Positions 3,964 through 52,831 of a DNA stretch of 64,000 nucleotides are shown here, one piece after another (position 1 is the first letter of the stretch; each line of letters opens with the position of its first letter). Source of the DNA: Evansella clarkii (GTDB lineage: Bacteria; Bacillota; Bacilli; Bacillales; Salisediminibacteriaceae); assembly GCF_002019695.1 (NCBI RefSeq), contig NZ_MTIV01000022.1, positions 62,001 to 126,000 on the forward strand, in the 5' to 3' direction. A program made the position numbers and the translations under genes. The notes beneath the pieces are model-generated. The model made no database searches, was not told where the DNA came from, and saw nothing but the letters and a program-made list of their open reading frames with translations.

Positions 3964-3982
3964 GGTGCGACATAACCGCACC
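3964..3982 (+). promoter_or_regulatory. Leader hairpin (family I)
   Basis: GGTGCG pairs with CGCACC around a 7-nt loop, followed by GATAGAAAGG, 52 nt before the next start codon. One of the recurring leader hairpins described in the findings. Confidence 0.6.
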
Positions 3983-4033
3983 GATAGAAAGGGTGAAACA
4001 CCATAAAAAATCACTAGAAACAGGAGGGCATTT

Positions 4034-4363
4034 ATGTCGCCATACCATCAGACCGCACAAGCTGACTGTACCGTCGAGTTTCGAATTCTCGACCCGAAAA
4101 CGCAACAAGAGGCGTGGAAAGTCCATGAAGCCATGAGAATCAATGCGCCAACAGTCGAGCACCTGATCGAACGGGCCCATCTCTATGTCGGAAGACCGGA
4201 GCGACACGAAAACGTCTCCGCTATTCGGCTGACCGGGACAGTTATCCTCGTTCACCGGGAGAAAGACATTGTGCATGACCACGAAGACACGATCGCGCTG
4301 GATTTGAAAGTTCTAAGGGAGCGCACCACTCCTATTAACGGCGCCGCTGTCGTCGCTGGTTGA
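4034..4363 (+). CDS. Hypothetical protein, 109 aa
   Basis: Not recognised. The protein is soluble, with no signal or membrane segment. It begins with an AGGAGGG site 6 nt before ATG. It is the first gene after a family I leader hairpin and is followed 25 nt later by another small gene, so the two form one unit. A reverse-strand frame overlaps it but lacks a ribosome binding site. Confidence 0.7.
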   Translation: MSPYHQTAQADCTVEFRILDPKTQQEAWKVHEAMRINAPTVEHLIERAHLYVGRPERHENVSAIRLTGTVILVHREKDIVHDHEDTIALDLKVLRERTTPINGAAVVAG

Positions 4364-4388
4364 TCGAAATCGAAAGGAGGGTAAACGC

Positions 4389-4691
4389 ATGCTTACAACT
4401 GAGCGTCACACCTTAAAGTCGCTACAGAAAATGATTGATGGGTTACCTGATAACCTCACTGACCGCGACAACCGATTTATTATTGTCGCGACAAACGGCG
4501 CGATATCGGCCCTCATCGACGCTGAGGAACCGATCAATAAGACGCACCGGTATCATGAAGAAGCTAAACGCATTATCAAAGACCTGCAGGCGTTCATGGA
4601 GTACAGACACCAGGAAAAATGGACCGCCGATACGACCTATGCGTATCACCGAGTGAATACCACGACGGAAAACAGAAAGCTAGAAGCCTAA
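4389..4691 (+). CDS. Hypothetical protein, 100 aa
   Basis: Not recognised. Predicted helical and soluble, with LKSLQKMIDGLPDN near the start. Strong AAAGGAGGG site. It is the second gene of the unit from 4034 and is followed directly by a terminator at 4701-4730. Confidence 0.7.
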   Translation: MLTTERHTLKSLQKMIDGLPDNLTDRDNRFIIVATNGAISALIDAEEPINKTHRYHEEAKRIIKDLQAFMEYRHQEKWTADTTYAYHRVNTTTENRKLEA

Positions 4692-4700
4692 AAGGCACGA

Positions 4701-4730
4701 CCACCCTGGAAATCAGGGTGGTTTTGTTGT
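4701..4730 (+). terminator. Intrinsic terminator
   Basis: CCACCCTG and CAGGGTGG form an 8-bp stem followed by TTTTGTTGT. Confidence 0.8.
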
Positions 4731-4765
4731 GCAAAAAACTACTTAAACTAAAAGGAGCGATATGT

Positions 4766-5011
4766 ATGACTGTGATAGCCAACCAAACCGACCGACTGAC
4801 TAAGGATCAATTTATTACTACAGAGCAAACGATCAGCTTTCTAAGAGAAAGGGGACTCCGACTACATGTTTCCAGATCCAAAGACCGCTACATCTGCCGG
4901 ATCGTAGACAAAGACAAAAACGTGGTCAGCCTTTCTTCTCGCACCGTTCTTGAAGAAGCTGTAACCATCGCCATTGGTAACGTCCGTGACTTCGAGGAGG
5001 TGCCGGTATGA
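4766..5011 (+). CDS. Hypothetical protein, 81 aa
   Basis: Start at the ATG 6 nt after AAAGGAGCG; a longer upstream frame has no such site and crosses the terminator before it. Sequence not recognised. It overlaps the next gene by an ATGA, so the two are translationally coupled. Confidence 0.75.
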   Translation: MTVIANQTDRLTKDQFITTEQTISFLRERGLRLHVSRSKDRYICRIVDKDKNVVSLSSRTVLEEAVTIAIGNVRDFEEVPV

Positions 5012-5349
5012 ACGCCACCGTGGAGGTATCTCTTAAAACGGAGGAACCGCTGGAAATAAACCTGAAAGAACAGCTGATCGCTGACATTTTGCAGCTCGGC
5101 GTGAAGGCGCACTACCACACCAACCGATGCGTCTTTGTGGAGTTCATCGGACATGTGAATCGATTAGATATCAGCGTCCGGGAAAGTTCGAATCTCTATT
5201 ACCATACATTGCACTCCATAGACATCTGGCTGCAACCCTTCCCGTTTTTCAACGAAAAGGAGATAGAAACGTTCGAGCAAGAGGTGATACAGCAGCTACA
5301 TGAAGCGAAAGAGTTATTGGAATCTTTATTAAGAGAACCTGTTATGTAA
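5008..5349 (+). CDS. Hypothetical protein, 113 aa
   Basis: Not recognised. Overlaps the previous stop codon by 4 nt, with GAGGAGGTG upstream. Mixed alpha/beta prediction with a long C-terminal helix (KEIETFEQEVIQQLHEAKEL). It closes the coupled pair. Confidence 0.7.
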   Translation: MNATVEVSLKTEEPLEINLKEQLIADILQLGVKAHYHTNRCVFVEFIGHVNRLDISVRESSNLYYHTLHSIDIWLQPFPFFNEKEIETFEQEVIQQLHEAKELLESLLREPVM

Positions 5350-5429
5350 TATGTAATACTAAAACGTAATCTGTTATCGTTTCTGAAAAGGATATCAGGA
5401 AAAATGATAAGGGTAAAGGAGTGGTATCA

Positions 5430-5654
5430 GTGACTATTAGTAGCGCTGACAACAACAAGACTGGGAAGTACGGAGGGACACCGACCAAAATGATGGAGTT
5501 GGCCGTCGGCACGAAATTCTATGAGTGCAACGGTGGCTGGTCTGGCGAGATCGTCTTGAAGGACAACCAGAAACACGTTCTGATTGACGGGGATTCCATG
5601 GAAAACGCCAAGATCATCAACGAGGATCATCTGCTCGACATCGAAGTGGAGTAA
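5430..5654 (+). CDS. Hypothetical protein, 74 aa
   Basis: Start set at the GTG at 5430, nine nt after AAAGGAG; the GTG at 5421 directly abuts that site. A small beta-rich protein with GTKFYECNGGWSGEIVLKD and HVLIDGDSMENAKIINEDHLL. Not recognised. Followed at once by a terminator. Confidence 0.65.
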   Translation: MTISSADNNKTGKYGGTPTKMMELAVGTKFYECNGGWSGEIVLKDNQKHVLIDGDSMENAKIINEDHLLDIEVE

Positions 5655-5671
5655 CACTGTATCTAAAGCCG

Positions 5672-5706
5672 AAACCGGTGCGGAATTTCCGCACCGGTTT
5701 TTCTTG
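5672..5706 (+). terminator. Intrinsic terminator
   Basis: AACCGGTGCGG pairs with CCGCACCGGTT, then TTTTTCTT. Confidence 0.85.
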
Positions 5707-5733
5707 ATTAGAACAAAAAGGAGTTGGAAACAA

Positions 5734-6246: not shown

Positions 6247-6410
6247 TTACAGAGTTTTTAAAGGCAGCGCCGGCGCGGTAATAGAAAACGTTTATTCATA
6301 TCCACGGAGGACTGGCTCCGTTGTTTTCAACAACCGATAGATCATCTGAAAGACAACTACCCGACCCATATGGGACGGAAAAACCAATATACTCAAAGGA
6401 GCGATTCCAC

Positions 6411-6665
6411 ATGATAAACCCAGGAAATCAAACAATTAATAACCAGGCGGTAGGATTGCGTGACCGCATTCAGCTGGACGCGGTAAATGAATTAAAAACC
6501 ATTATTAATGCTGATGACTATTCAAACGAGGAAAAACTACGGTTAGTCGAAGCCCGCCTTGATTTCAAGAACACGGAGATGGAGAAATATCATCAGGATA
6601 TCGAAAAGCATTATGCAGAAGAACCAGCCGTAGAGCAGCTCACCCTCTTTAGTCTGAGCAGCTGA
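6411..6665 (+). CDS. Hypothetical helical protein, 84 aa
   Basis: Start at the ATG 9 nt after CAAAGGAG; an earlier in-frame start lacks a site. Mostly helical with KLRLVEARLDFKNTEMEKY, likely a coiled coil. Not recognised. Followed by a strong terminator. Confidence 0.65.
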   Translation: MINPGNQTINNQAVGLRDRIQLDAVNELKTIINADDYSNEEKLRLVEARLDFKNTEMEKYHQDIEKHYAEEPAVEQLTLFSLSS

Positions 6666-7992: not shown

Positions 7993-8228
7993 AAAAAAAA
8001 CCTCTCTTAGATAAATTTCACCAATATACTCCCTACTACGATATTAGGTCATTTCCATATTTCTCCCTCCTTTTTAGTACTTCTATTTAATTATGGCATT
8101 AATTCCCAAATTATCAAGTTAATTGTTAAATTTTTCTCAATAATCAAAAAAAGTCCTAATTATAACAATGTCTCCTATACAACCTATTGGTTTACAGGCT
8201 TTCTAATCATTTCGAGGTGAAAAATTGC

Positions 8229-8242
8229 CCCGCATAATCGGG
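8229..8242 (+). promoter_or_regulatory. Weak leader hairpin (family I-like)
   Basis: CCCG pairs with CGGG, followed by ACCAATGAATC, 67 nt before the next start. The tail matches the family but the stem is short. Nothing else was found between 7993 and 8309. Confidence 0.3.
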
Positions 8243-8309
8243 ACCAATGAATCAGGTGACACAGTAAAAATAAGCTGAAATCAAGTAATCGGAAAGGGTG
8301 AAATCTATC

Positions 8310-9011
8310 ATGGAAGGAAGATACGGAACGTCTCTTGAGCAAATAGACGAAATTATTATCAAAAACTTAATCAGAGAACGTGCGATGAGACTCGAACTAA
8401 CCAGCCGAGCCAGACTCAGAGTTGTTGATTATCTATTGGAAAACTTGAACTTAAACGGGAATGTCCTCCGGGAAACCATACGAGGAATATCTGATTTAGT
8501 TGGCGTCGGCACCAATATCGTGACGCTTACACTCCAAATACTGGAGCGAGACAATATTATTAAACGCTGGACCGGTGCTATTGTTTTACATCCTGAAATT
8601 TTACGCCACTGTCATGATATGATTGACACTACTCCCCCACCGGACACTTATAAATTCCATATAGAAGTGCAGCCGATCCCTACAGACCAGGAACGTTCTT
8701 TAGGTTATCGGGATCTTAAACGGAAATACGAATCCGGAGAAGAAGAACGCCAGGAACGGGAACGCGAGGCCGCCTTCATCACGCTTACCCAAAAGAAAAA
8801 TGCTGAAATACTGAGAGAACGTGACAAAAAACTTAATGAGCGAGAAAAAATGCTCAATAAGCGGGAAAATGAATTAAATTTGTTGCAGGTTTCTTTGATG
8901 GCTAAAGAAGAAAAATTAATGAAATGGCAAGGAAAACTGGATGGACTGCTAGGATTGAGAGGCAGCTCCGATAAAGAAAACGATACCGCTATTTTTCACG
9001 ATTTAGCTTAG
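8310..9011 (+). CDS. Winged-helix DNA-binding protein with coiled-coil tail
   Basis: 233 aa from the ATG at 8310, 12 nt after GGAAAGGG; a GTG at 8298 touches that site. Residues about 20-100 form a likely winged helix (TSRARLRVVDYLLENL, then GISDLVGVGTNIVTLTLQILERDNIIKRW). Residues 140-215 are highly charged and coiled-coil forming (REREAAFITLTQKKNAEI, LNEREKMLNKRENELN). This could be a plasmid replication accessory, copy-control or segregation regulator; I cannot assign a family. Confidence 0.65.
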   Translation: MEGRYGTSLEQIDEIIIKNLIRERAMRLELTSRARLRVVDYLLENLNLNGNVLRETIRGISDLVGVGTNIVTLTLQILERDNIIKRWTGAIVLHPEILRHCHDMIDTTPPPDTYKFHIEVQPIPTDQERSLGYRDLKRKYESGEEERQEREREAAFITLTQKKNAEILRERDKKLNEREKMLNKRENELNLLQVSLMAKEEKLMKWQGKLDGLLGLRGSSDKENDTAIFHDLA

Positions 9012-10363: not shown

Positions 10364-10378
10364 GTGCGCACGGCGCAC
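10364..10378 (+). promoter_or_regulatory. Leader hairpin (family I)
   Basis: GTGCG pairs with CGCAC, tail CGATCAATCG, 44 nt before the start codon. Confidence 0.6.
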
Positions 10379-10422
10379 CGATCAATCGAACAGAAAATAT
10401 GAAAACTAAGGGAGCGATTCTC

Positions 10423-11457
10423 ATGAAAAATACATCTGTATCTAAGCAAACTCACACATCTAAAGAACCGGCGCGTATCAATGATAGTGGCTACTATCCG
10501 TCAAAAGGGATGCTCGCAGAGGTCGTCAAGCAGTTCCAGGCGCCGATAACCCGCCGCGCAATCCGCCCCGGGTTTCTGGCACGAACGGACGGATTCGACG
10601 TAGATCAAGCCGTTACTGATCTGGAAAAGCAGCCTGGCCAAGAAGGACTGTTGTCCCGTCTGCTCAGTGTGAGCGACTTAACCGAAAAGACCTATGATCG
10701 TTTTGCGGATAATCCAAACAGTCTGTATAACTGGTATCCTGCTGTGGAAGCAGCTCTTGCTACGAGCAATACCGAGCTGAAAACTCCGGACACAAAAGTG
10801 ATGCGCCTGCCGATTGAGCTGGCCCAGTTCATTAGGCTCGAATACCAAGACACGTCACAGGCAGACAAAGCGTTATTTAATCAGTTTATCTTTGACCAAT
10901 TCGGTCTGGAAGATGGTAAGACCTACTTTATTAAAACCGGCACGTTCTCGTCTAAATTTCAGTTCGCCAATGCGAAGTGCAGCGAGCCCCGGGAGATGGG
11001 CGAATACTTCCAGGTGATTAATAACTTCGCCATGCAAGTCGGCGCGGGCCACACCGTGGATCTTGTTGTGCGTGAATACATCGAAGACACGGAAGACAAT
11101 CCGACGATTTATAACGGGATGCCTTTACGCACCGAGTTCCGTGTGTTTGTCGACTGTGATGCGGACGAATTGATCGGTGCCGTCCCTTATTGGCACCCAA
11201 TCGTGATGAAGCGTGCGCTGCAGGCCGGCCTTTCGGATTCGATTCAGCAGGACTATCAGACGTATCTTAGTCACGAACAAAAGCTGGTTGATGAGTACAA
11301 CGAACATCTTCATCGTGTGAAAAAAGAGATCCGGGCGATTCTGCCAAACTTGAATCTTTCAGGTAAATATTCGATTGATGTAATGAAAAACGGTGACGAT
11401 CTGTATGTGATCGACCTGGCTCTCATGAGCCAGTCTGCTCTTACAGAATTATTATAA
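10423..11457 (+). CDS. ATP-grasp-like protein (D123/R2K-type)
   Basis: 344 aa from the ATG after AAGGGAGCG. The centre and C-terminus follow the D123/R2K branch of ATP-grasp proteins: YFIKTGTFSSKFQF (first nucleotide-binding strand and loop), LVVREYIEDTE, PLRTEFRVFVD, and the closing YSIDVMKNGDDLYVIDLALM with the metal-binding acidic residues. Such proteins ligate or bind nucleotides; phage members are suspected of modifying peptides or proteins. The substrate here is unknown. Residues 1-130 are not recognised. Monocistronic, with two leader hairpins upstream. Confidence 0.7.
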   Translation: MKNTSVSKQTHTSKEPARINDSGYYPSKGMLAEVVKQFQAPITRRAIRPGFLARTDGFDVDQAVTDLEKQPGQEGLLSRLLSVSDLTEKTYDRFADNPNSLYNWYPAVEAALATSNTELKTPDTKVMRLPIELAQFIRLEYQDTSQADKALFNQFIFDQFGLEDGKTYFIKTGTFSSKFQFANAKCSEPREMGEYFQVINNFAMQVGAGHTVDLVVREYIEDTEDNPTIYNGMPLRTEFRVFVDCDADELIGAVPYWHPIVMKRALQAGLSDSIQQDYQTYLSHEQKLVDEYNEHLHRVKKEIRAILPNLNLSGKYSIDVMKNGDDLYVIDLALMSQSALTELL

Positions 11458-13163: not shown

Positions 13164-13522
13164 GGTCGCTATGAGCGACCGGTGAAAAGTTTGACTCAGA
13201 CTTCAAGGAGTCTAGGTGGTATGGTCAGTTCCCTATCGAGACGCATACACGCCGAAATCATAGTCGATGTTGATGGACTGACATTAGGAGGATTCATAGG
13301 TTCATCGGGCATGAAAATTCTCCCCTGTTTTTTGTGGAGCTTTTTGTCTTGCATAACAACAAAAAACCACCAGCAATACCGCAGTTTCCAGCATCAAACG
13401 GAAGATGCGAGAGCCTCGACAACTGTCGTATCTTTCAGAGTGAGAGTAGAGCGTATTGGTCGGATACCTTTACACTCACTGAGAACCATCAACGGGACGC
13501 CGTTGGTGGTTCTTTTTTTTTT
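13164..13522 (+). ncRNA. Candidate non-coding transcript: leader hairpin to terminator without a gene
   Basis: Starts with a family I hairpin (GGTCGCT/AGCGACC at 13164-13180, tail GGTGAAAAG) and ends with a strong terminator at 13483-13522. The frame that follows a plausible AAGGAG site runs through the terminator and looks non-coding. Either a decayed cassette or a real RNA. Confidence 0.4.
13483..13522 (+). terminator. Intrinsic terminator
   Basis: GAACCATCAACG pairs with CGTTGGTGGTTC, then nine or more T. Confidence 0.85.
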
Positions 13523-13683
13523 GAAAAGATTAATCTTTCTGTTTGTTATTTGAATAACCCACAATCTATCATTTTTCCCTTTAAAGATTGTTTATTATAA
13601 ACATTTATTAGAACATGTACCTCGTTTAATAACATTTCGGGGACCTGAATCCCTTGTGACTCTAAGGGCGAACCTCTCGAAGT

Positions 13684-13847
13684 ATCACACATTGGGTAAA
13701 TACGATCACAGATCGGGTACAAAACATCACAGATTGGGTACCTTACTATCACACATTGGGTGTCCCACTATCACAGATTGGGTAAATAACATCACAGATC
13801 GGGTAAAATCCATCACACATTGGGTACGAAACATCGCAGATTGGGGG
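13684..13847 (+). repeat. Iteron array of the replication origin
   Basis: Eight tandem copies of ATCACA[CG]ATTGGGTA or a close variant start at 13684, 13705, 13726, 13748, 13770, 13791, 13812 and 13833, a 21-22 bp period (two helical turns). This is the arrangement bound by Rep_3-type initiators. The last copy is divergent. Confidence 0.95.
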
Positions 13848-13896
13848 TGGGATTTTAAAAAATAGTCTTCAGGCCCTGCTATGTTCGACTTTTATT

Positions 13897-42536: not shown

Positions 42537-42542
42537 GCCTAT

Positions 42543-42783: not shown

Positions 42784-42807
42784 GTTGCTCCGCTCCCGCT
42801 CCGCAAC
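42784..42807 (+). promoter_or_regulatory. Leader hairpin (family I, GCTCC loop)
   Basis: GTTGC/GCAAC around TCCGCTCCCGCTCC, tail CGATCAAACGG, 31 nt before the start. Confidence 0.65.
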
Positions 42808-42838
42808 CGATCAAACGGTTGAAATAGGAGGTGGTCAC

Positions 42839-42982: not shown

Positions 42983-42990
42983 TAACACAT

Positions 42991-43026
42991 AACCGGTGCC
43001 GCTCTCATGCGGTGCCGGTTTTTTAA
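42991..43026 (+). terminator. Intrinsic terminator
   Basis: AACCGGTGCCGC pairs with GCGGTGCCGGTT, including two G-U pairs, then TTTTT. Confidence 0.85.
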
Positions 43027-43050
43027 CGAAATTATACGGAGGGGATAACC

Positions 43051-43731
43051 ATGGCAAACCATCAAACTGACCTTTTATCAAAATCAAAGGACGACTTTAT
43101 ATTGAAAGACGTTCGTGAACGAGTAAGTGTTTATGGAACGGAAGATGTATCTATTCATGACCTGCTGGCACTTATTATCGGCAAAAACAATAAAGAAGCG
43201 ATTGATGTCCTGGCAGCTACCCATCCCCGAGAGTTACTCAACATGTCCCTTTCTGATTTTAAAGCGATCAGCGGGATCGGGCCCGTTCTGGCAGAACGCC
43301 TGGAAGCCTGTATGGGACTTGCAAAGAAACTATTAAAAGAAAACTTTCCGGAACAATATGTGATCCGCTCCCCGGAAGATGCCCGGCAGTACCTTATAGG
43401 CAGAATGAAACATTTAATCCAAGAAGAATTTGTTGTGATGGTGCTTAATACAAAGAACCATGTGCTGGCCACCAAAACCATTTTCAAAGGAACGCTGAAT
43501 GCGTCGATTATTCATCCAAGAGAGATATTCAATTTTGCCATTAAAAAGAACGGGGCAAGCATCATTTTGGCCCACAATCATCCCAGTGGCGAGGTCCTGC
43601 CGTCCCCTGAAGACATCGAGGTGACGGAACGCCTGAATGAAGCAGGTGATGTATTAGGGATCGATGTTCTTGACCACATTATCATCGGCGGTAACAGATA
43701 TCTCTCGATGCAGGAAAAAGGATATATGTGA
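43051..43731 (+). CDS. radC: RadC-family JAMM protein
   Basis: 226 aa. Helix-hairpin-helix near 72-83 (AISGIGPVLAER), then the JAB/MPN domain with the JAMM motif HNHPSGEVLPSPED (His175, His177, Asp188). Typical full length. RadC proteins are common on mobile elements; a role in DNA metabolism or anti-defence is suspected but unproven. GGAGGGG site. Confidence 0.93.
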   Translation: MANHQTDLLSKSKDDFILKDVRERVSVYGTEDVSIHDLLALIIGKNNKEAIDVLAATHPRELLNMSLSDFKAISGIGPVLAERLEACMGLAKKLLKENFPEQYVIRSPEDARQYLIGRMKHLIQEEFVVMVLNTKNHVLATKTIFKGTLNASIIHPREIFNFAIKKNGASIILAHNHPSGEVLPSPEDIEVTERLNEAGDVLGIDVLDHIIIGGNRYLSMQEKGYM

Positions 43732-43748
43732 TGATTGGGATACGCAAA

Positions 43749-43782
43749 GCCGATACCTTTTAACAGGGTGTCGGTTTTTTTA
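43749..43782 (+). terminator. Intrinsic terminator
   Basis: CCGATACC/GGTGTCGG with G-U pairs, then six T. Confidence 0.8.
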
Positions 43783-43795
43783 TTCGATGAAAGCA

Positions 43796-43817
43796 GTCAG
43801 ATCGCTCCGCTCCTGAC
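43796..43817 (+). promoter_or_regulatory. Leader hairpin (family I, GCTCC loop)
   Basis: GTCAG/CTGAC around ATCGCTCCGCTC, tail CGGTAAAACCG, 40 nt before the start. Confidence 0.65.
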
Positions 43818-43857
43818 CGGTAAAACCGATGAAAATAAAAAATGAGGAGTGATTTTT

Positions 43858-44235
43858 GTGGAAACTATTATTACAAAAGACAATCTGAACGAAGCATTCG
43901 AACGCATGGTGGTTGGCCTTATCCGAGCGGAAAACTATAACCAGCACTGCTTCGGGATGTCTGATCTGAGATGGGCATCTGCGATGGATCACGCCCTGGA
44001 CACCTTTATCGAAAAAGTAATCGAGGCCGGATACTGCCATCACGCGATCTTAGGTCCGACACTCGTAAAATATGATTACACGGTCGAGTCGCCTAAGAAT
44101 AAAGCATTAAAAACAGAACTAGATGACAGCTTTCAAATCGACATGAGCGACTACCAGCAAGCTCTGTCTGTCAGCTACGAGGTATTTGACAGCACAGTAG
44201 AAGCCATTCAGGAAGGTGCAATGCCGTACCGATAA
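43858..44235 (+). CDS. Hypothetical protein, 125 aa
   Basis: GTG start at 43858, 8 nt after TGAGGAG. Soluble and largely helical (NLNEAFERMVVGLIRAENYN). Not recognised. Single gene with own leader and terminator. Confidence 0.65.
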   Translation: METIITKDNLNEAFERMVVGLIRAENYNQHCFGMSDLRWASAMDHALDTFIEKVIEAGYCHHAILGPTLVKYDYTVESPKNKALKTELDDSFQIDMSDYQQALSVSYEVFDSTVEAIQEGAMPYR

Positions 44236-44240
44236 GACCG

Positions 44241-44280
44241 AAAACCCATGCCGTCACTCACGGTATGGGTTTTATTTTTG
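44241..44280 (+). terminator. Intrinsic terminator
   Basis: AAAACCCATGCCGT pairs with ACGGTATGGGTTTT, then ATTTTTG. Confidence 0.85.
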
Positions 44281-44777
44281 ACATCAGATGCGCAAATCAT
44301 GCTGACAACAGACCGTATGCCGTGCTGAATGAAATGCACACGCTGTACCGCACGGCATGCTGTACGGTATGCGTACAGCATAAAGCATAACTTACGTATT
44401 TGATGAATTACCACGGGATGTCACACAGCATGCGTACCTGGTGCGACATCTCGTACTGATTTTATGCGTACGGAGTACCGCACCGGATGGTGATGCGTAT
44501 GAGATGTCATATACCGTGCGTATCTCATGCCGTATCTCGTATGCATTTGATAATAGACAGGGTGTGCGTATGGTATGTCATATGCTATGCGCATTCTGTG
44601 CGAGATGCGGTGCAGGATGTTCGGATTGTTATACGGTGCGGTATGTCATGCGTATCTGGTTTTGCATGACATGCGTATAAAATACGCATCGCATGTTAGT
44701 GCATATAACGTACGGAAATTATCGGTAAGTGATGTCGCACCGGATGTGATACGGCGTACGGCACGGTATGCGTTTTA
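44281..44777. repeat. Degenerate short-word repeat region (GCGTA, GGTATG, GATGTCA)
   Basis: About 500 bp without a credible gene, made of closely spaced variants of ATGCGTA, GTACGG, CGGTATG and GATGTCA. GCGTA alone occurs at least nine times. Frames across it are Cys/Met/Tyr-rich artefacts with no ribosome site. Confidence 0.6.
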
Positions 44778-44793
44778 GGTTGCATCCGCAACC
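44778..44793 (+). promoter_or_regulatory. Leader hairpin (family I)
   Basis: GGTTGC/GCAACC, ATCC loop, tail GGTTAACCATTC, 44 nt before the start. Confidence 0.6.
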
Positions 44794-44837
44794 GGTTAAC
44801 CATTCGAGATCAAAATTCGTAAATAAAAGGAGCGATT

Positions 44838-45335
44838 ATGATGGCAGATTATAAATACTTAGGATTAACCGCATATATCAAGGAAAACGAGCTAAACGCT
44901 GAAAAATTAAACGTATTGGCAGGTGCAATTGAAAGCGTACAGCACCAGGTCGAAACGATCGAATTCGATGAAGAAAAGTACAAAACCATTGTCCGCTCAG
45001 AGGCTTACCAGTACTTATATGACAATGATTCTATGTGCTTGGCGGATGACTCGGAGTTTCCGGAAAATACACCTGAAGCGTATAAACACCTGAGTATCGA
45101 AGGTACCAATATCAAGGGATACCCGATGCTGAAAATCTATATTCCATCCGTATCAAAGCGTATAGAAAGCGTTCATCATTTCATCTATAACTCTCTACGC
45201 CCAGTGCTTTTAGAGTTATTTGGTGAAGACCTGATTCACATGAGAACCAAGGAAGGCATTGAATACGAGAACTTCCAGGACGGAAAAGAAACGATTTTAG
45301 TCTCTGTTGAAGACCGCACCAAGGTCACCGCCTAA
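44838..45335 (+). CDS. Hypothetical protein, 165 aa
   Basis: ATG after AAAAGGAGCG (a second ATG follows directly). Alpha/beta, soluble, with YIPSVSKRIESVHHFIYNSL near the C-terminus. Not recognised. Single-gene cassette. Confidence 0.65.
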   Translation: MMADYKYLGLTAYIKENELNAEKLNVLAGAIESVQHQVETIEFDEEKYKTIVRSEAYQYLYDNDSMCLADDSEFPENTPEAYKHLSIEGTNIKGYPMLKIYIPSVSKRIESVHHFIYNSLRPVLLELFGEDLIHMRTKEGIEYENFQDGKETILVSVEDRTKVTA

Positions 45336-45342
45336 AATCACT

Positions 45343-45381
45343 GAACCGACAGCCTTTTCAGGGCCGTCGGTTCTTTTTTTT
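45343..45381 (+). terminator. Intrinsic terminator
   Basis: GAACCGAC...GTCGGTTC, then eight T. Confidence 0.9.
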
Positions 45382-45449
45382 ATGACACCAGAGTGAATCT
45401 CTTTGTGGAACTACCAGACCGTCTCTCCCGACCCGTAAACCCTGGAACC

Positions 45450-45546
45450 AAGCGATTTAGAGCGGGTCCCGCGTCGGTCGGTGGTTCTTCTCGACTCTCT
45501 CGCTCTGCTCGTATAACCGCTCCCTCCTTCCCCCTCTAAATCGCTT
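45450..45546 (+). ncRNA. Twin structured element 1
   Basis: Outer stem AAGCGATTTAGAG (45450-45462) with CTCTAAATCGCTT (45534-45546). Inside: CGGGTCCCGC at 45463-45472, and GGTGGTT (45480-45486) pairing with AACCGCT (45515-45521) through G-U pairs. Confidence 0.5.
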
Positions 45547-45561
45547 AAAAGTCCTTCTTAC

Positions 45562-45679
45562 AAACAGCGCGGGCCCCGCCTGACCTACGGTGGTTTTTCC
45601 TGACTTTTTCCACTTCACACTTCGTGTGTACAAGACCTCTTTTTTGTCATACAACCGCCTCGGTCAGCCCCCGCTGTTT
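45562..45679 (+). ncRNA. Twin structured element 2
   Basis: Outer stem AAACAGCG (45562-45569) with CGCTGTTT (45672-45679), second stem CTGACC/GGTCAG. Inside: CGGGCCCCGC at 45570-45579, and GGTGGTT (45589-45595) with AACCGCC (45653-45659). CACAC-TTC-GTGTG caps the centre. Same architecture as element 1 with a different outer stem. Confidence 0.5.
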
Positions 45680-46192
45680 GACGAATGTCTCTTTCTTGCT
45701 TTCTCTTTTATTGACGTTTCGCTCCGATGACTCTCCGCTTCTCTAACACTCTTTTGACAGCGTCCCCTACCCCTTTTTCTGGCAGCTCCCCTGCTCTCCC
45801 TGATCGAATACCGGGGCGCCCTCCCGGTTCGATTCTCCGCTCGTATACACGCCCCGTATGCCGCTCTGATCCGCCTCTATCGGAGTGCCTTCCGGGGCGA
45901 AAACCGCGCCGGAATCCGCTGACGGACCCGTCATACGCCAATCTCGTCAAATGGAGCTTGACGGATTTTGCGAATCGCATAACGGCGCGGTTTACCGGCG
46001 CTTGAATCCGTGACGGATTTTGCTATGGTATCTCGCGCATGGGGCGTATCGGTTGGCGCGCCGGGATTTGTTGGTATCGTGTGAAGATGCGGCGTGGTAT
46101 CGATACGGGTAGGGGAAAGAGCATAAGGGGGACGTATGACAAGCTGCGCTTCGTCAGTCAGCATAGCTGACCGTCCCCCTTACTGCGTCGAT

Positions 46193-46660: not shown

Positions 46661-46682
46661 GACATGTTCCGGTGTCCATGTC
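46661..46682 (+). promoter_or_regulatory. Leader hairpin (family I)
   Basis: GACATG/CATGTC, tail CGACAAAGAAG, 38 nt before the start. Confidence 0.6.
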
Positions 46683-46720
46683 CGACAAAGAAGATGAATA
46701 AAAAAGAGGAGGCTACAACC

Positions 46721-46900
46721 ATGATTGTAAACGGCACACTAAACAGAGTCACAAAGGACGAAGGGATATTTGTCCTCGAAACCAAAGAAACAAAAACAAT
46801 GCCCACTTCACTTCTACCTACCCAGGCAAAAGTAGGAGATAAATTCGACATATCCATAAAACCAGACGGCGATATCCGCTCTGTCATCATCCGTAACTAA
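46721..46900 (+). CDS. Small protein, DUF3006-like
   Basis: 59 aa from the ATG after AGAGGAGGC. IVNGTLNRVTKDEGIFVLET, then SLLPTQAKVGDKFDISIKPD, resembles the small beta-barrel of DUF3006 proteins (LP..a..GD.......). Function unknown. Terminator follows, shared with the TRAP operon. Confidence 0.6.
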   Translation: MIVNGTLNRVTKDEGIFVLETKETKTMPTSLLPTQAKVGDKFDISIKPDGDIRSVIIRN

Positions 46901-46955: not shown

Positions 46956-48248
46956 TTATAATACAAACGTGACGATCTCCGGGAATACCAACAGCAGAAC
47001 AATCACAATCAAATAACCAAGTATGAATAACGTCAATCCTTTAAATATGTCTTTTACAGGAATGCTCTTATCTATCCCGTGAACCACATACGCATTAATG
47101 CCAACAGGCGGAGTGATCGCTCCGAGACTTGTTACGACACACAGGACAACCGAGAACCAGATCGGATCATATCCTAAAGCATATACCGTCGGAGAGAAGA
47201 TCGGAATCGCCAGAACAAGGAACCCGATTGCGTCCATTAACGCTCCACCAGCAATGAAAATTAAAATAATCAATGCCAAAATCAATATCGGTGGAATGGA
47301 TAACGACTGCGTCCACTGGGCGATCTCAAACGGGATTCGTGTAATCGTCAGGAATCGTCCGAAGTAAATCGCGCCGACAATCAGCATGACAACCATAGAC
47401 GCCGATTTTAACGAGCTTATCACCGCCATTTTGAAGCTATCCCACGTTAGACGCCTCATAACTAGCGAAAGTACAATCGCTCCAAATGCGCCAAATGCGC
47501 CCGATTCTGTAGGTGTGAAAATCCCCATAAACAAACCGCCGATAACAAAGATAAATAGTAAGAAAATCGGAATGATACCAAGTAAAGATTTCACCTTATC
47601 TTTCATCGTAACCTGAATATCGGCAGCAGGTCCGTACGCCGGTTTCATCCGTGTGATAGTACCAATAAGTACAATAAAGATTAACGTTAACAGTAAGCCA
47701 GGAATGAGGCTTGCCTTAAACAATTCAGACACCGACTGCTCTGACTGAAGGGCGATTATAATTAATACGGTACTCGGTGGGATGATAATACCAAGAGTTC
47801 CCCCAGCTGCTACCGCACCTGCACTTAGTTTGTTGTTGTACTTGTATTTCTTTAATTCCGGTAACGCCATTGTCCCCATCGTAGCGGAACTCGCCGCGTT
47901 GGAGCCACAGATAGATGCGAAACCGGCACTCGCTAAAATGGTCGTCCACGCCATACCGCCACGCAAATGACCCACCCATTTATACGCGGTATCAAACAGA
48001 CTTTTTGCAATACCGCTTCGGTAAATAATCTCCCCCATCAATATGTACAATGGGATGACACTCAGAGAATACTTGGAGAACTCACCCCATATGTTCCCCG
48101 ACAGTAAGCTGAACGCCGATTCCGGTGTGGCCACGACAACAATGCCGATAAAACCTACAATAAACATGGAAAAACTAATAGGGACTTTCAGGAAAAACAA
48201 CGTGAATAATATCGCAATACCTAAAATACCAGCCATTGTCATACTCAT
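46956..48248 (-). CDS. dctM: TRAP transporter large permease (DctM)
   Basis: 430 aa with about twelve membrane segments, the usual length. Family features include the GNIWGEFSKYSLSVIPLYIL and GSNAASSATMGTMALPELKK signatures and a C-terminal SLGAITPPVGINAYV. It drives Na+-coupled uptake of an organic acid delivered by DctP. Overlaps dctQ by 4 nt. A Na+-driven importer suits a salt-loving host. Confidence 0.95.
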   Translation of the reverse strand: MSMTMAGILGIAILFTLFFLKVPISFSMFIVGFIGIVVVATPESAFSLLSGNIWGEFSKYSLSVIPLYILMGEIIYRSGIAKSLFDTAYKWVGHLRGGMAWTTILASAGFASICGSNAASSATMGTMALPELKKYKYNNKLSAGAVAAGGTLGIIIPPSTVLIIIALQSEQSVSELFKASLIPGLLLTLIFIVLIGTITRMKPAYGPAADIQVTMKDKVKSLLGIIPIFLLFIFVIGGLFMGIFTPTESGAFGAFGAIVLSLVMRRLTWDSFKMAVISSLKSASMVVMLIVGAIYFGRFLTITRIPFEIAQWTQSLSIPPILILALIILIFIAGGALMDAIGFLVLAIPIFSPTVYALGYDPIWFSVVLCVVTSLGAITPPVGINAYVVHGIDKSIPVKDIFKGLTLFILGYLIVIVLLLVFPEIVTFVL

Positions 48249-48763
48249 AGTTTGACCTCTTTCTTCTCCGGCGCTCCACCATCGGTGTTACGTGAAGATA
48301 CGTTATCGAGAATGTCCACAACCAGCTGTACCGCTAACCCGATAAACCCGAGGGCGACCATAAAGATGAACGGGTAAATCGCGACATCCATTGTTTGGGA
48401 TAACGTCCCGTTATTCTTCATGGATTGGCTGTAATCTAGTAATTGGTAGGTGACGATCAAAAAGAATACGAGACTGACCGTATAACCAAACACATTCACC
48501 ACGCGCTGGATCATCGGCGGGAATTTCTCAAAGGCAATATCGATGTATACATGTCCTTTTTGTGACTGGGTATAGCCAAGGACAAATGAAATCGCAATCG
48601 CTGTCAGCCAGCCGGCCACCTCCGGTGTTCCTGTGAATGGACTTGTAAACAACCGCATGATGGCATTCCCAACGATAAGAAGCATACAAAGAACGATAGC
48701 AACTCCAGCGACATAAAGCATTAAACTGTTAAACTTCGCAACATATTTCCGTATATAACTCAT
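48245..48763 (-). CDS. dctQ: TRAP transporter small permease (DctQ)
   Basis: 172 aa with four membrane segments and the conserved VAGWLTAIAISFVLGYTQSQKG region around the EVAGW motif, then GHVYIDI. Complexes with DctM. CGAGGACG site. Fits between dctP and dctM in the operon. Confidence 0.93.
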   Translation of the reverse strand: MSYIRKYVAKFNSLMLYVAGVAIVLCMLLIVGNAIMRLFTSPFTGTPEVAGWLTAIAISFVLGYTQSQKGHVYIDIAFEKFPPMIQRVVNVFGYTVSLVFFLIVTYQLLDYSQSMKNNGTLSQTMDVAIYPFIFMVALGFIGLAVQLVVDILDNVSSRNTDGGAPEKKEVKL

Positions 48764-48839
48764 GTAATTTCACGTCCTCGCGTTAAAATTGTCATAAAAA
48801 AATAGAGGGCAAAACGCCCCCTATTCATGAACTCTCGCA

Positions 48840-49889
48840 CTACTGGTTCTCGTACTTTTCAATAAGCTCGTAAAAACGCTCTCTGTACTCGTCACCCGGC
48901 AGTCCTGCGTTGTTCGCTTTTTCTACGGCGTCATCTTGTAATTGTAGTAGTTGTTCTTGCCATCTTTGCTGCTCATCATCAGAAAGAGTGACAACTTCAA
49001 GACCGTGTTCTTCTTTACTCCACGACATCGCATCTTCAATGGAATCATCCAGGTACTGACCTGTGAATGCAGGCATTTCCGCATTTACTTCCTCGATCAC
49101 ATCCTGCACGTCCTGCGGGAGAGAATCCCATACCCCCTGGTTCATCACAGCAACGAACGAAGCAGTAGATAACGGATAGTCCACCACATAATCAACCATT
49201 TCTCCCAGCTTGAAGTCATAGAGTACTTCTCTTGAAGAAATGTTTCCTTCAATGACGTTTGTTTGAAGGGCTTCCGGAACTTCTGCTAAGGACATACCAA
49301 CCGGTGAACCGTTTAAGGCTTCTAATACGTCCGCGTTGCTCCCTGCAATACGGATCTGCATACCGGATAGGTCATCCATACTCTCCACTTTCTGCTTCGT
49401 CTGGACGTACGCAGGGTCACCTGTAAACGTCGTGAGTATCTTCACATCACTCATCGCTTCCGGTTCGAACTCTGTTAACAAATCACTTGTGACCTGACTT
49501 GCTACGAGGGAGCTGCTGATCCCGGACGGCATGTCCGAAATAGAGAGCAGCGGATATTGTCCCGGCTCATACGTTGGAGACGATAATCCAATATCGACAA
49601 CCCCGTCACGAACCCCTTTATACATGTTTTCTGCATCAAGCAGCGTACCGCCCGGGTAGAGTTCCACCTCTACTTTCCCATCCGTACGTTCTTCTACTTC
49701 TTCCGCCCACTTCGTCATCTGGACACCTGGGAAGCTGTTTTCACTGGCGAAGAATGCATAGCTTAATGTGATTGGATCATCCCCGTTTTCGTTCGGGGAG
49801 GCGGCTTCCCCGCCCGCCCCACACGCGCCCAATACTAAACTTGATGCTGCTAATAATCCTGCTAATTGTCCGGCTTTTCTTTTTCTCAT
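48840..49889 (-). CDS. dctP: TRAP substrate-binding lipoprotein (DctP)
   Basis: 349 aa. Lipobox LVLGAC near residue 23, then the DctP fold: MTKWAEEVEERTDGKVEVEL, YPGGTLLDAENMYKGVRDGV, and MQIRIAGSNADVLEALNGSP with the Arg that binds the carboxylate of the ligand. It catches the substrate outside the membrane. The ligand is unknown, probably a 2-oxo or hydroxy acid in view of the enzyme encoded upstream. Confidence 0.93.
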   Translation of the reverse strand: MRKRKAGQLAGLLAASSLVLGACGAGGEAASPNENGDDPITLSYAFFASENSFPGVQMTKWAEEVEERTDGKVEVELYPGGTLLDAENMYKGVRDGVVDIGLSSPTYEPGQYPLLSISDMPSGISSSLVASQVTSDLLTEFEPEAMSDVKILTTFTGDPAYVQTKQKVESMDDLSGMQIRIAGSNADVLEALNGSPVGMSLAEVPEALQTNVIEGNISSREVLYDFKLGEMVDYVVDYPLSTASFVAVMNQGVWDSLPQDVQDVIEEVNAEMPAFTGQYLDDSIEDAMSWSKEEHGLEVVTLSDDEQQRWQEQLLQLQDDAVEKANNAGLPGDEYRERFYELIEKYENQ

Positions 49890-49936
49890 AATGGTAGTGA
49901 CCCCGTTTCTTAGTTTGTATTTTTTGTTATACGCTC

Positions 49937-51712
49937 TTACAGCTCTTGTCCTGTTTGTGGTTCCAGATAGACGTTCACGACAGCGGAACGCCCGTTATCA
50001 ACCGTGTAAACCGCCTGTTCCAGCACTTCTCTTAACTCATCCGGTGAAGAAACCGCATAACCGATAGCATCGCCTGACGCTTCAGAAATTTTCTCCATCC
50101 GGGCGTTATCACCGAAATTCACCCAAAACTTATCGTTTGTACTCGCCACGCCATCCGGATGGACACCGAGCGTTGATAGTTTAGGAGACTTCCAACCACG
50201 GTTATTAAAAATGACCGTAAGGAATGGTGTTTTATACTGAGAAGCAATCCAGTGAACAGAAGACGGAACCGTAAACATATACGTACCATCACCTGTCAGG
50301 GCTACCACTCGTTTATCGGGGTTTGCCAGCTTCGCACCGATAGCCGCTCCGCCATTCCAGCCAAGGGAACTAGCACCCGCACCGTAAAGCGTTCCGACTT
50401 TGTTTCGGCGGATGTTTCGCCAGACCGCACCGAAATTGGAAATCGTTTCGTTCATCACAATGTCATCTTCATCAAGAACGCTCTTTAGCGTCTTTGTCAG
50501 CAGGTCTGGTGTAATATACGAGCTCTCTTCTGCCTTTTCATTCCAGCGGGACAGCAATTCTTCATGTTTTGCTTTTAACCCTTTTGCTCTTAGCGCGATC
50601 GCATCTTTGTGAGTGGATAAATCGAGCTGAGAAACCTGCTTGTTTATCTCTTTTAAAGACAGGTATGAATTCGCCTGGAACTGTTTTTGTGTCGGGTAGT
50701 ACCATAAAGGAATGTTTTCCTTTGTAGGATCAATATCTATCCAGTCGACGACGCAATCCTCTTTCGGTTTTGTATGCAGCGGTATCCACGGTACATCACA
50801 ATCAATCACCAAAATGTAATCAGCTTCTTTTACGCGATCGGTCGATTCGTTTGAACCTGTATAATCTTCATATCCTAAATGGAACGGATGGTCCGACGGG
50901 AAGTTCATATAATAAGGCCCGGACTCCACAACCGGAACGGATAATGACTCAGCTAACTGCACCAGCTCCGGAACCGCTTCTTCTTGTCGACCTAAATAGC
51001 TCGTAATAATGAGCGGTTTTTTCGCTTTTAGCAGCTGATTCACTACGTGATCTGCTTGAGATCCTGTTATCCCCTGTGGCTCTACCGGCTTAAAATGATC
51101 CACCTGCACATCGTTGTCTTCAATTTCTTCTGCCAGAACCTCTCTCGGCGTCATCATATACACCGGACCTTTTGGCTCTGACTGCGCCATCTGCAAGGAA
51201 CGAAGAATCGACTGCTTCATGTTTTTACCGGAATTAACGGTATGGGTGTATTTCATATAATCACGAACGATACCCGCTTGGTTCGGGACGTCCTGCAAAT
51301 AATGAATGAATTCATTTCTGGAACCAGGCAGCTCATTCTCGGCTGTTGCTGGTGACATACCTGCAAAAATGAAAACTGGAATGCGCCCTCTCATGACATT
51401 ATGAATGGAACCGCCTAAATTCTGCGTACCCACATCGACGTGAACGAATACCGCTTGCGGTCGGCCTGTCACTTGCGCATACCCATGGGCAATACTCAAT
51501 GTGAGAAACTCATGCGGGCATACGATAATCTTTGGCATGTCTTTGCCCTGTTCTTCTGCTTTCGCCCAGCTTTCGATCAGGGATGCGTGGTCGCTACCCA
51601 GACCAACGAAAAAGTATTCCACTCCGGCATCCCGAAGTGTTTCCATCATGGCATCGCTTGTTGTATAAACAAGTTCTGGTTGTACCTCTTGCTGTTTGTT
51701 GTGTCCCGTCAT
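49937..51712 (-). CDS. Thiamine-diphosphate-dependent enzyme (acetolactate synthase-like)
   Basis: 591 aa, three-domain ThDP enzyme. Catalytic Glu68 in CPHEFLTLSIAHGYAQVTGR, central FAD/Rossmann-like domain (200-330), and the C-terminal ThDP motif GDGTYMF...NNRGW. Its substrate is not clear; relatives include acetolactate synthase, benzoylformate decarboxylase and sulfoacetaldehyde acetyltransferase. It heads the operon with the TRAP genes 50-80 nt apart, so it likely acts on the imported acid. No regulator gene is adjacent. Confidence 0.85.
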   Translation of the reverse strand: MTGHNKQQEVQPELVYTTSDAMMETLRDAGVEYFFVGLGSDHASLIESWAKAEEQGKDMPKIIVCPHEFLTLSIAHGYAQVTGRPQAVFVHVDVGTQNLGGSIHNVMRGRIPVFIFAGMSPATAENELPGSRNEFIHYLQDVPNQAGIVRDYMKYTHTVNSGKNMKQSILRSLQMAQSEPKGPVYMMTPREVLAEEIEDNDVQVDHFKPVEPQGITGSQADHVVNQLLKAKKPLIITSYLGRQEEAVPELVQLAESLSVPVVESGPYYMNFPSDHPFHLGYEDYTGSNESTDRVKEADYILVIDCDVPWIPLHTKPKEDCVVDWIDIDPTKENIPLWYYPTQKQFQANSYLSLKEINKQVSQLDLSTHKDAIALRAKGLKAKHEELLSRWNEKAEESSYITPDLLTKTLKSVLDEDDIVMNETISNFGAVWRNIRRNKVGTLYGAGASSLGWNGGAAIGAKLANPDKRVVALTGDGTYMFTVPSSVHWIASQYKTPFLTVIFNNRGWKSPKLSTLGVHPDGVASTNDKFWVNFGDNARMEKISEASGDAIGYAVSSPDELREVLEQAVYTVDNGRSAVVNVYLEPQTGQEL

Positions 51713-51828
51713 TTGTGCAAAACCCCCATCTTTTCTCTTAGAAAATTCATATTTGTTTTACTGGAAATTTATTCCATATCAACCGTTACTGGAATATTTT
51801 ACCATATATAATTTTATATTACAATACT

Positions 51829-51860
51829 AAAACGCTGAACACCCAGCGTTTTGATAAATT
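51829..51860 (+). terminator. Hairpin in a divergent region
   Basis: AAAACGCTG/CAGCGTTTT followed by GATAAATTTTTTG. No plus-strand gene precedes it; possibly the end of a displaced unit. Confidence 0.5.
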
Positions 51861-51883
51861 TTTTGTTTAGATATTAAATTCGT

Positions 51884-51903
51884 GACATGGACGTCGCCAT
51901 GTC
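51884..51903 (+). promoter_or_regulatory. Leader hairpin (family I)
   Basis: GACATGG/CCATGTC, tail CAATATACGAA, 63 nt before the start. Confidence 0.6.
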
Positions 51904-51966
51904 CAATATACGAAATGAAAAATAAAGACTGTAATGATCGACAAATAAATAATGGGAGTGATTCCG

Positions 51967-52380
51967 ATGGACAAAGACTGCATCAAAAAAGGAAATACGA
52001 TTTATTTACTTGACCGCAACGCATGGAACGTCAACGATCCCGAGGCACTCATCGTGGAAATGACTATTATCGAAAAAGACGGCGAGCTTTATGCTCACGC
52101 CAAGCAAGGCTATTCGACGATGGAATTCCACGTCTCAGCAGACTCCATCTCAGAGATGAATAAACCTCAATATAAAATACTGTTTGAAACGAGAGCCGCT
52201 GCCCAAGCGCACTATGAGGAGAGCATGGATAAACAGGTGCAGGCGATTCACGATATGTCACAAGAAGAACTGATTAAGTTATTTTTTAACGAATGGCGCG
52301 GGGAGTACATGCATGATATCAGGATCGACGAAGCCATGAGGGAGAAGATTAAGAACGAGTTCAAGGTTCATGTAGGATGA
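51967..52380 (+). CDS. Hypothetical protein, paralog 1
   Basis: 137 aa. Shares with paralog 2 (52897) the stretches LDRNAW.VNDPEALIVEM, TR..AQAHY, MS...L..-FF..W.G and the C-terminal helix (EAMREKIKNEF). ATG after GGGAGTG. Not recognised; the strong conservation between copies shows it is a real protein. Confidence 0.75.
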   Translation: MDKDCIKKGNTIYLLDRNAWNVNDPEALIVEMTIIEKDGELYAHAKQGYSTMEFHVSADSISEMNKPQYKILFETRAAAQAHYEESMDKQVQAIHDMSQEELIKLFFNEWRGEYMHDIRIDEAMREKIKNEFKVHVG

Positions 52381-52390
52381 GTAGGACAGA

Positions 52391-52420
52391 CGCAGCGGAA
52401 ATCCGCTGCGTATTTTTTTT
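52391..52420 (+). terminator. Intrinsic terminator
   Basis: CGCAGCGG, AAAT, CCGCTGCG, then eight T. Nearly the same as the terminator of paralog 2. Confidence 0.9.
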
Positions 52421-52461
52421 CTAAAACTGTCAGACCCTTCAAACCATTTAAGCCCAGACAA

Positions 52462-52480
52462 GACATGTCAGGGACATGTC
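52462..52480 (+). promoter_or_regulatory. Leader hairpin (family I)
   Basis: GACATGT/ACATGTC, CAGGG loop, tail CAATGAACGAC, 82 nt before the start. Confidence 0.65.
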
Positions 52481-52562
52481 CAATGAACGACATGAATGAA
52501 TCAAAAACATTTTCGTATATTAAAAACTTGCTCATCTGAGTAATAGATAAGGGGAGTTCATT

Positions 52563-52733
52563 ATGGGGAAGTATCCGAAGCATGAACCTTGTGAAATGTG
52601 CGGAGTCGATGTGATTTACGGATTCAGTCTTTGTGACGACTGCGACAAAAAAGTTGAGAAGTTTGATGAAACTACAGGTCTCTATACTTTGGAAAACGGA
52701 GAAGTAGTAGATACGACAAAACATCAGTATTGA
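52563..52733 (+). CDS. Zinc-ribbon peptide, 56 aa
   Basis: MGKYPKHEPCEMCGVDVIYG start; CEMC (10-13) and CDDC (24-27) form one zinc site, then an acidic tail. GATAAGGGGAG site. Sits between the two paralogs with its own leader. Function unknown. Confidence 0.65.
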   Translation: MGKYPKHEPCEMCGVDVIYGFSLCDDCDKKVEKFDETTGLYTLENGEVVDTTKHQY

Positions 52734-52812
52734 TTGAACCTTTACAAGTGAATCGATTTCAGCAACAACGCATAATCAATAGATCAGACCCAAACCGTTC
52801 AACCCCAGAATA

Positions 52813-52831
52813 GACATGTCAGGGACATGTC
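52813..52831 (+). promoter_or_regulatory. Leader hairpin (family I)
   Basis: Same stem, loop and tail as the one at 52462; 65 nt before the start. Confidence 0.65.

Follow-up and report, generated by a model that had tools for sequence, protein, structure and literature searches.

Recurrent hairpins with a conserved tail in front of small genes of an Evansella clarkii plasmid as putative promoters of a plasmid-encoded RNA polymerase

Why should about twenty genes on one stretch of DNA each be preceded by a hairpin that keeps its pairing while its sequence changes, and which protein would read such a signal? The question is raised by a window of 64,000 nucleotides from Evansella clarkii, i.e., positions 62001-126000 of a contig of 234,850 bases (NZ_MTIV01000022.1, hereafter C2). 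A first-pass annotation of the window had described hairpins at 17 main and three weaker positions and had taken them for an RNA element, perhaps a plasmid-wide regulatory signal bound by one protein. A pairing-conserved, plasmid-wide regulatory signal in front of about twenty genes is indeed supported, and it is wider than first described. As its single cognate protein, one probable candidate was found, a polymerase encoded on the same contig. The assignment to RNA, however, fits the data less well. As the best explanation, it appears rather probable that the elements are DNA hairpin promoters of the plasmid's own polymerase which head a regulon of establishment genes.

All 17 main positions carry a stem followed by a tail. 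The copies lie on one strand and follow a common plan, in which a stem of varying sequence (mostly 5-8 bp) with an outer G-C pair is followed by C-R-R-T-A-A-A...TGAA. If the window copies are aligned on the 3′ side of the stem, the outer G-C pair and the tail are what they have in common. The earlier statement that pairing is kept across changing stems is correct in general, but at least two of the 17 include a mismatch (C.A at 30957, C.C at 20993). Similarly, the loop GCTCCGCTCC, which had been ascribed to three copies, is exact at 42784 and 43796, whereas 30957 reads GCTCCCGCTCC. Among the weaker positions, the copies at 8229 (stem GCCCCG/CGGGAC, one C.A) and 53411 (arms GACATG and CATGTC, separated by about 55 nt) are probably real, but at 55089 the wrong hairpin was probably chosen, and a copy starting at 55113 (short GGC/GCC stem, tail CGATAAAAAAGATAATGAA) takes its place. 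From 19 trimmed copies of the listed hairpins a covariance model (R1) was derived, so that its scores for those copies are circular. It matched the window at 20 places with E < 0.1 and at 21 with E < 0.25, and found copies in related plasmids as well. Outside the training set it matched 6320-6354 (E 0.02) and 55113-55141 (E 0.085), the former being GTTGT-TTTCA-ACAAC followed by CGATAGATCATCTGAAAG and preceding the gene at 6411. The elements of the window, each with the gene or open reading frame (ORF) that it precedes, are given below; some entries refer to a set of 101 elements from four plasmids which is defined further down.

3965-4001, plus strand: element, before the gene at 4034-4363
6320-6354, plus strand: element absent from the first-pass list and from the R1 training set, before the gene at 6411-6665
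8227-8264, plus strand: element with one C.A pair, before a RepL-like gene at 8310-9011
10364-10398, plus strand: element, before the gene at 10423-11457
13165-13199, plus strand: element, before the ORF at 13221-13553
20293-20329, plus strand: element, before the gene at 20355-20843
20993-21032, plus strand: element with one C.C mismatch and the lowest R1 score of the 17 listed (E 0.24), before a weakly MazG-like gene at 21049-21405
30957-30999, plus strand: element with one C.A pair, outside the set of 101 though held real, before the ORF at 31020-31163
33836-33874, plus strand: element with a scan score of 21.6 (below the cut-off of 22), hence outside the set of 101 but held real, before a Phage_30_3 gene at 33920-34378
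37483-37517, plus strand: element, before the gene at 37560-37835
38972-39007, plus strand: element with the best R1 score, before the gene at 39026-39469
41886-41921, plus strand: element, before the gene at 41949-42236
42784-42827, plus strand: element with a long GCTCC-repeat loop, before the ORF at 42839-42982
43796-43837, plus strand: element 14 nt past a terminator-like T-run (gap by eye), before the gene at 43858-44235
44779-44812, plus strand: element, before the gene at 44838-45335
46661-46702, plus strand: element, before the ORF at 46721-46900
51884-51923, plus strand: element, before the gene at 51967-52380
52462-52500, plus strand: element, before the ORF at 52563-52733
52813-52851, plus strand: element, near-copy of that at 52462, before the gene at 52897-53307
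53411-53497, plus strand: probable element with stem arms about 55 nt apart, before the gene at 53589-54398; its tail part (53467-53497) has an R1 E of 0.071 and is in the training set
55113-55141, plus strand: probable element with a short GGC/GCC stem (R1 15.7 bits, E 0.085), replacing the 55089 hairpin, before the gene at 55171-55356

The window segment 44242-45400, which includes one element, preceded by imperfect TGCGTA-rich repeats, and a gene for 165 residues, has a 79% identical copy on contig C1 of the same genome (934122-935289), and 44364-45400 has a 94% copy in the genome of another genus of the same family. A TnpB-like gene (OrfB_IS605, minus strand, 31219-32370) ends about 55 nt from the element-headed ORF at 31020-31163. 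Tandem elements, about 52-62 nt apart, occur on C2 outside the window (C2:13350-13408 and C2:19620-19739), and the tandem arrangement is also present in Virgibacillus and Shouchella.

The candidate for the cognate protein is encoded outside the window, on the minus strand of C2 (C2:188982-194279). Its product P0001, a single chain of 1765 residues, is predicted from its sequence to be an RNA polymerase that combines the RpoB-type and the RpoC-type catalytic barrel. The motifs DFDGD and GDKxSDxxGNK are invariant in all six aligned sequences (P0001 and five homologues), and a profile of these six matched RpoB (E 1e-13), an RPB1-type chain (E 5e-13) and RpoC (best E 4e-12) from the PDB at the two catalytic barrels. 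The Pfam domains Rpb2_6 and Rpb1_2 were above their cut-offs in both staphylococcal homologues scanned, and the Gordonia homologue passed one of them. In a tblastn search of 72,556 plasmid records, P0001 as query found relatives in 13 records and the S. capitis protein in 25. The 12 records added by the latter are C. difficile plasmids with short matches, and for 11 of these matches the annotation reads RNA polymerase subunit beta. P0001 had no match in 50,697 phage records, and of 397 sampled genomes of the order only its own contained the polymerase. The eight best matches of MobL, the relaxase encoded on C2, in the plasmid collection are eight of the polymerase-bearing records.

A search of genome contigs with the polymerase alignment yielded 47 loci, the close ones being found in Virgibacillus sp. 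AGTR 4 (83% identity), Shouchella clausii AKU0647 (83%) and Paenibacillus gallinarum (70%). In these three genomes the matches of R1 cluster on one strand of the polymerase contig (five of ten in Virgibacillus, six of seven in Paenibacillus and three of three in Shouchella), and further element copies were found on the whole polymerase contigs. Element clusters thus accompany the polymerase in three of the five polymerase-bearing genomes given to R1. A cousin of the element is carried by the staphylococcal plasmids SAP020A, pHD75-1_1 and pAYP1020 and by an S. aureus plasmid, where a hairpin (e.g., GTGGTTGC-nnn-GCAACCAC) is followed by the tail TTAGATAtnAAtAAAATT and then by a ribosome site in front of many small genes. 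Its stems vary with the pairing kept (GTGGTTAC/GTAACCAC, ATGGCTGC/GCAGCCAT and a GTATACA-type); their mismatches are three A.C (one in a doubtful match), one A.A and one C.C, and one pHD75 hairpin outside the matches of the pattern scan contains G.T. That scan found 12, 8, 9, and 6 tails with a stem on the element strand compared to 0, 2, 1, and 1 on the opposite strand, with several of the element-strand matches not being true elements by eye. A staphylococcal query of 48 nt was found at 32 places in five of the 72,556 plasmid records, and these are exactly the five staphylococcal ones in which the polymerase is encoded. In all eight plasmids compared, the genes for the polymerase and MobL lie on the strand opposite to the elements. 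A viral contig (L181) with the staphylococcal pattern was rejected as a chance match, as it has no A-rich tail and its record has no polymerase match.

Opposite strands, random positions, shuffled sequences, the own chromosome and genomes of the family served as controls for chance occurrence. A plain rule of a stem followed by C[GA]NTNAA gave 18 matches on the plus and three on the minus strand of the window, ten of the 18 being listed elements. For a scan of four Bacilli plasmids, tail weights were combined with a stem, seeded by 20 tails of the C2 plasmid and iterated three times. At the cut-off score of 22 it yielded 39 matches on the element strand vs. one on the other for C2, 27 vs. one for Virgibacillus, 18 vs. 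two for Paenibacillus and 24 vs. three for Shouchella (108 vs. seven in total); its seeds come from the finding itself and the tail weights were refined on the element strand, with the opposite strand as control. A score of at least 22 together with a tail score of 8 defines the set of 101 elements, of which at least two window members (those at 8832 and 52625) are located within reading frames and probably spurious, but were kept in every count. Of the tails picked by sequence in the four plasmids (score at least 11), 81 of 239 on the element strand were accompanied by a stem that qualified, vs. five of 126 on the opposite strand. An unseeded motif search on tails after stem-loops returned CgaTAAAanaaatgAA in Virgibacillus, the staphylococcal tail in three of four staphylococcal plasmids (SAP020A, pHD75 and pAYP1020), a T-rich motif on C2 and a blurred motif in Shouchella; nothing clear emerged in Paenibacillus, pTUM20888, pJM4A and pGKT2. 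In the own genome, where 150 of 1255 candidates were scored, R1 had 15 matches of at least 20 bits on C2 and five on C1 (coordinates past 5.0 Mb), one of these five in a copy of a window segment. Among 34 other genomes of the family, 30 included matches at E up to 1 (best 24.4 bits), which were scattered by eye.

Within the set of 101 elements the arms vary in sequence with complementarity retained. The outer pair is G-C in 80, C-G in 12, A-T in six and T-A in three elements, while the second pair includes all four Watson-Crick types (40 C-G, 33 T-A, 13 A-T, 12 G-C, and three unpaired). Stems of 5-8 bp are found in 82 elements; loops range from 3 to 23 nt, with 4 nt being the commonest length (32 elements). 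The tail begins with C in all cases, followed by R, R, T (0.83), A (0.72), A (0.86) and A (0.98), and its positions 13-15 favor T (0.65), G (0.80) and A (0.92), frequencies that are partly a result of how the set was selected. Upstream of the stem, A is favored at a distance of 5-7 nt, and nothing further rises above the general A-richness.

Does such an element act as a promoter or as part of the transcript? The main rival, which we regard as possible and second best, though rather unlikely, is an RNA leader, i.e., a transcribed hairpin with a tail that is bound or cut by a plasmid protein and thereby sets mRNA stability, translation or termination. A stem with a free tail shortly before ribosome sites would suit such a leader, as would pairing that is conserved despite a changing sequence. 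However, low G.T, lack of a sigma-A excess, lack of an Rfam match and close upstream terminators fit a promoter better. Stem pairs of G.T vs. C.A/A.C were counted as three vs. eight (650 pairs, tail score 9), one vs. six (552 pairs, score 11) and zero vs. one (362 pairs, score 13), and as two vs. seven in the set of 101; the numbers involved are low, and part of the mismatched stems belong to doubtful elements. In RNA stems several per cent of G.U are usual, and what reads C.A on the sense strand appears as G.T on the template strand. Within these low numbers, the near-pure Watson-Crick pairing leans to DNA and perhaps to the template strand. Sigma-A promoters (score of at least 8 in the 75 nt upstream) were found for 4% of the 101 elements (5% in shuffled sequences), i.e., at chance level, in contrast to 26% of 155 transfer-strand genes with an open gap (shuffled 12%). 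Terminators under a strict rule end at most 35 nt upstream of seven of the 101 elements vs. seven of 4000 random positions, so that a transcript must start at the element or read through it. In Rfam no family was matched: the window gave five weak matches, all under the gathering scores and none on an element, and five related loci gave none above the gathering score. The tail resembles the handle of CRISPR repeats, a likeness that had prompted the idea of a CRISPR-like repeat or Cas6 substrate; among the scanned proteins, the one point on which this idea was checked, no Cas6 was seen.

The place of the elements speaks to a second alternative. A Shine-Dalgarno sequence with a start codon follows within 220 nt in 84 of the 101 elements. 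If the opposite direction is read, this holds for 21 of the 101, and among random positions for 487 of 2000. The distance from stem end to start codon has a median of 59 nt (101 elements, four plasmids). Scanning of 67 headed proteins revealed, among the families listed, DNA methylases, NADAR, a staphylococcal-type nuclease, RepL, UvrD-type helicase, AAA proteins and LPD18, with one to three members each, and one TnpB-like protein. In the three staphylococcal plasmids with an annotated SSB, its gene is headed by an element; SSB was not found on the polymerase contigs of four Bacilli genomes. We take the headed genes, which are mostly small and include many unknowns, for establishment (leading-region) genes. 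The polymerase might instead be a primase on the transferred single strand, with the hairpins as initiation sites for the second strand. For pLS20 it is reported that the template strand of the transfer genes is nicked (PMC5313138), and by this analogy the strand that bears nearly all elements of the four plasmids would be the transferred one. Yet the tie to a downstream gene start, missing in the opposite direction, stands against priming sites, and primers made there would point away from the gene, which renders this alternative quite improbable.

For DNA hairpin promoters of the plasmid polymerase, the following course of events is conceivable. The inverted repeat would be held as a DNA hairpin, probably in the template strand, extruded on the supercoiled plasmid. 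The polymerase would read the hairpin with its G-C base plus the tail CRRTAAAAC, and RNA would start within or just past the tail, so that the hairpin itself would lie upstream of the mRNA, which would open with a short leader and a ribosome site. Dozens of mostly small genes, located on the strand opposite to the transfer genes and the polymerase, would make up the regulon and serve for settling in a new cell. The data show the anatomy and orientation of the elements, their place in front of genes, the missing excess of sigma-A promoters, the joint occurrence with the polymerase in Bacilli and the two catalytic barrels of the latter. We infer that the polymerase recognizes the element and that the hairpin acts in the form of DNA, as well as where RNA starts and when after transfer this happens. 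If nicking is as in pLS20, the headed genes would enter the new cell as their sense strand. This would argue against a mode as in Frpo of the F plasmid and favor hairpins extruded from double-stranded DNA, as in phage N4. Single-stranded promoters for the host RNA polymerase, as Frpo, would agree with fold-back DNA preceding genes of the leading-region type, but they are very improbable here, as no conserved -35/-10 pair lies within or upstream of the element and most stems, at 5-8 bp, are too short for both boxes. Sites on double-stranded DNA for a dimeric repressor or activator, suggested by inverted repeats close to gene starts, are no more probable, since fixed half-sites would forbid arms that vary freely with complementarity kept.

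Several points weigh against hairpin promoters of the plasmid polymerase. The Pfam matches of P0001 itself (Rpb1 domain 2 and Rpb2 domain 6) are just below the cut-offs. The staphylococcal records are related, so that five of five are not five independent events. R1 gave no cluster in Lachnospiraceae bacterium A4 and Saccharofermentans, the two more distant of the five polymerase genomes given to it, and no recurrent hairpin with a tail was found in pGKT2 (Gordonia) and pJM4A (Lactococcus), both of which have distant polymerases; in pGKT2 an EM search for such a hairpin scored both strands alike. The unseeded search did not recover the element in C2, Paenibacillus and pTUM20888. Those genes of the element strand that lack an element likewise have hardly any excess of sigma-A promoters (13% of 183, shuffled 11%), and the scarcity of sigma-A promoters is therefore not peculiar to the elements. 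The excess of C.A over G.T is small and varies with the cut-off. Finally, by analogy with pLS20, a promoter acting on the incoming single strand is unlikely, and the hairpin would have to be extruded from double-stranded DNA.

Among the closest known parallels are the early promoters of phage N4, which also consist of a short DNA hairpin whose non-conserved stem bases matter for pairing alone, with conserved bases nearby, and which likewise serve an enzyme encoded by the mobile element itself (PMC4496689), a role that would apply here by inference. N4 has three hairpin copies (PMC4496689), whereas here there are dozens, on a plasmid. The N4 loop is short with a recognized purine, unlike the loops of 3 to 23 nt without a fixed loop base by eye in the present elements. 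The virion RNA polymerase of N4 is T7-like and single-subunit, but P0001 is a two-barrel RpoB/RpoC-like chain unrelated to it, so that the hairpin promoters would be convergent if our explanation is true. YonO and the P23-45 polymerases are, like P0001, single chains with two RpoB/RpoC barrels, and they transcribe genes of the element that encodes them (PMC5467207; PMC10770324), as P0001 would do here, but they are phage enzymes. The promoter sequence of YonO is left open in the description consulted (PMC5467207), and the main text on P23-45 does not mention a hairpin (PMC10770324); there, phage and plasmid single-subunit polymerases are named as one clade, with no plasmid function given in section 12. 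Frpo/ssi of F-type plasmids also are fold-back DNA that drives leading-region genes (PMC11541004). However, Frpo rebuilds a host -35/-10 promoter, and here no boxes above chance were found in the scan of the 75 nt upstream and in column counts, which did not score folded duplexes. In Frpo/ssi the transferred strand is the template, against which the analogy with pLS20 would argue here. EGeRS1 and EGeRS2 of the pLS20 family resemble the element as recurrent conserved sequences before establishment operons with methylases and SNase homologues (PMC8708921). A sigma-A promoter was not seen in EGeRS1, and the mechanism behind it is stated as unknown in section 20 of that paper (PMC8708921). By description they are set apart, since EGeRS1 measures 420-751 bp and EGeRS2 consists of a promoter together with Reg operators (PMC8708921), in contrast to about 35 nt and a plasmid polymerase here. 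In the literature searched, judged by titles and the start of abstracts, no paper on hairpin promoters of a plasmid polymerase was found.

As for the setting, the window encodes the replication genes Rep3 and RepL as well as ParA, and the remainder of C2 encodes, besides MobL, a phage-type lysozyme/CHAP protein and a type IA topoisomerase. A similar gene set is found in the staphylococcal and Gordonia relatives, several of which have annotated coupling-protein genes; Pfam named no coupling protein among the C2 proteins tried. C2 is probably a large conjugative plasmid. In a DNA similarity search, window positions 41700-45700 had no match to plasmids or phages. Nine iteron-like copies (19 nt) of TATCACAGATTGGGTAAAT lie at 13683-14132, upstream of the Rep3 gene (14383-15531), and six copies of a 28-nt repeat (GTACCCG..AGAGCACGGTTTTT) at 23986-24220, near the ParA gene (22713-23492), are a possible partition site. 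Minus-strand genes for a TRAP-type transporter and a thiamine-pyrophosphate enzyme (46956-51712) have a cargo-like look. At 35223-36357, a gene of the sigma-70 family (regions 2 and 4) with an uncharacterized ORF behind it has no listed element in front. Four more very large proteins (1048 to 1617 residues), without a Pfam match at E 0.001, are encoded at C2:31019-39585, C2:128674-131820 and C2:223813-228666.

It is only partly understood how plasmids of Gram-positive bacteria express their establishment genes right upon entry. If a plasmid polymerase had hairpin promoters of its own, this would provide a host-independent route to express such genes at once, and it predicts transcript start positions. 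The hairpins would also provide a sequence handle for finding establishment genes in plasmids of Bacillaceae and staphylococci. More tentatively, and in our view doubtful at present, this family of Gram-positive conjugative plasmids might send its own RpoB/RpoC-like polymerase through the type IV secretion channel together with the DNA, with the hairpin promoters expressing establishment genes without the host polymerase. If true, a polymerase co-transferred with the DNA would be conjugation's counterpart of the N4 virion polymerase.

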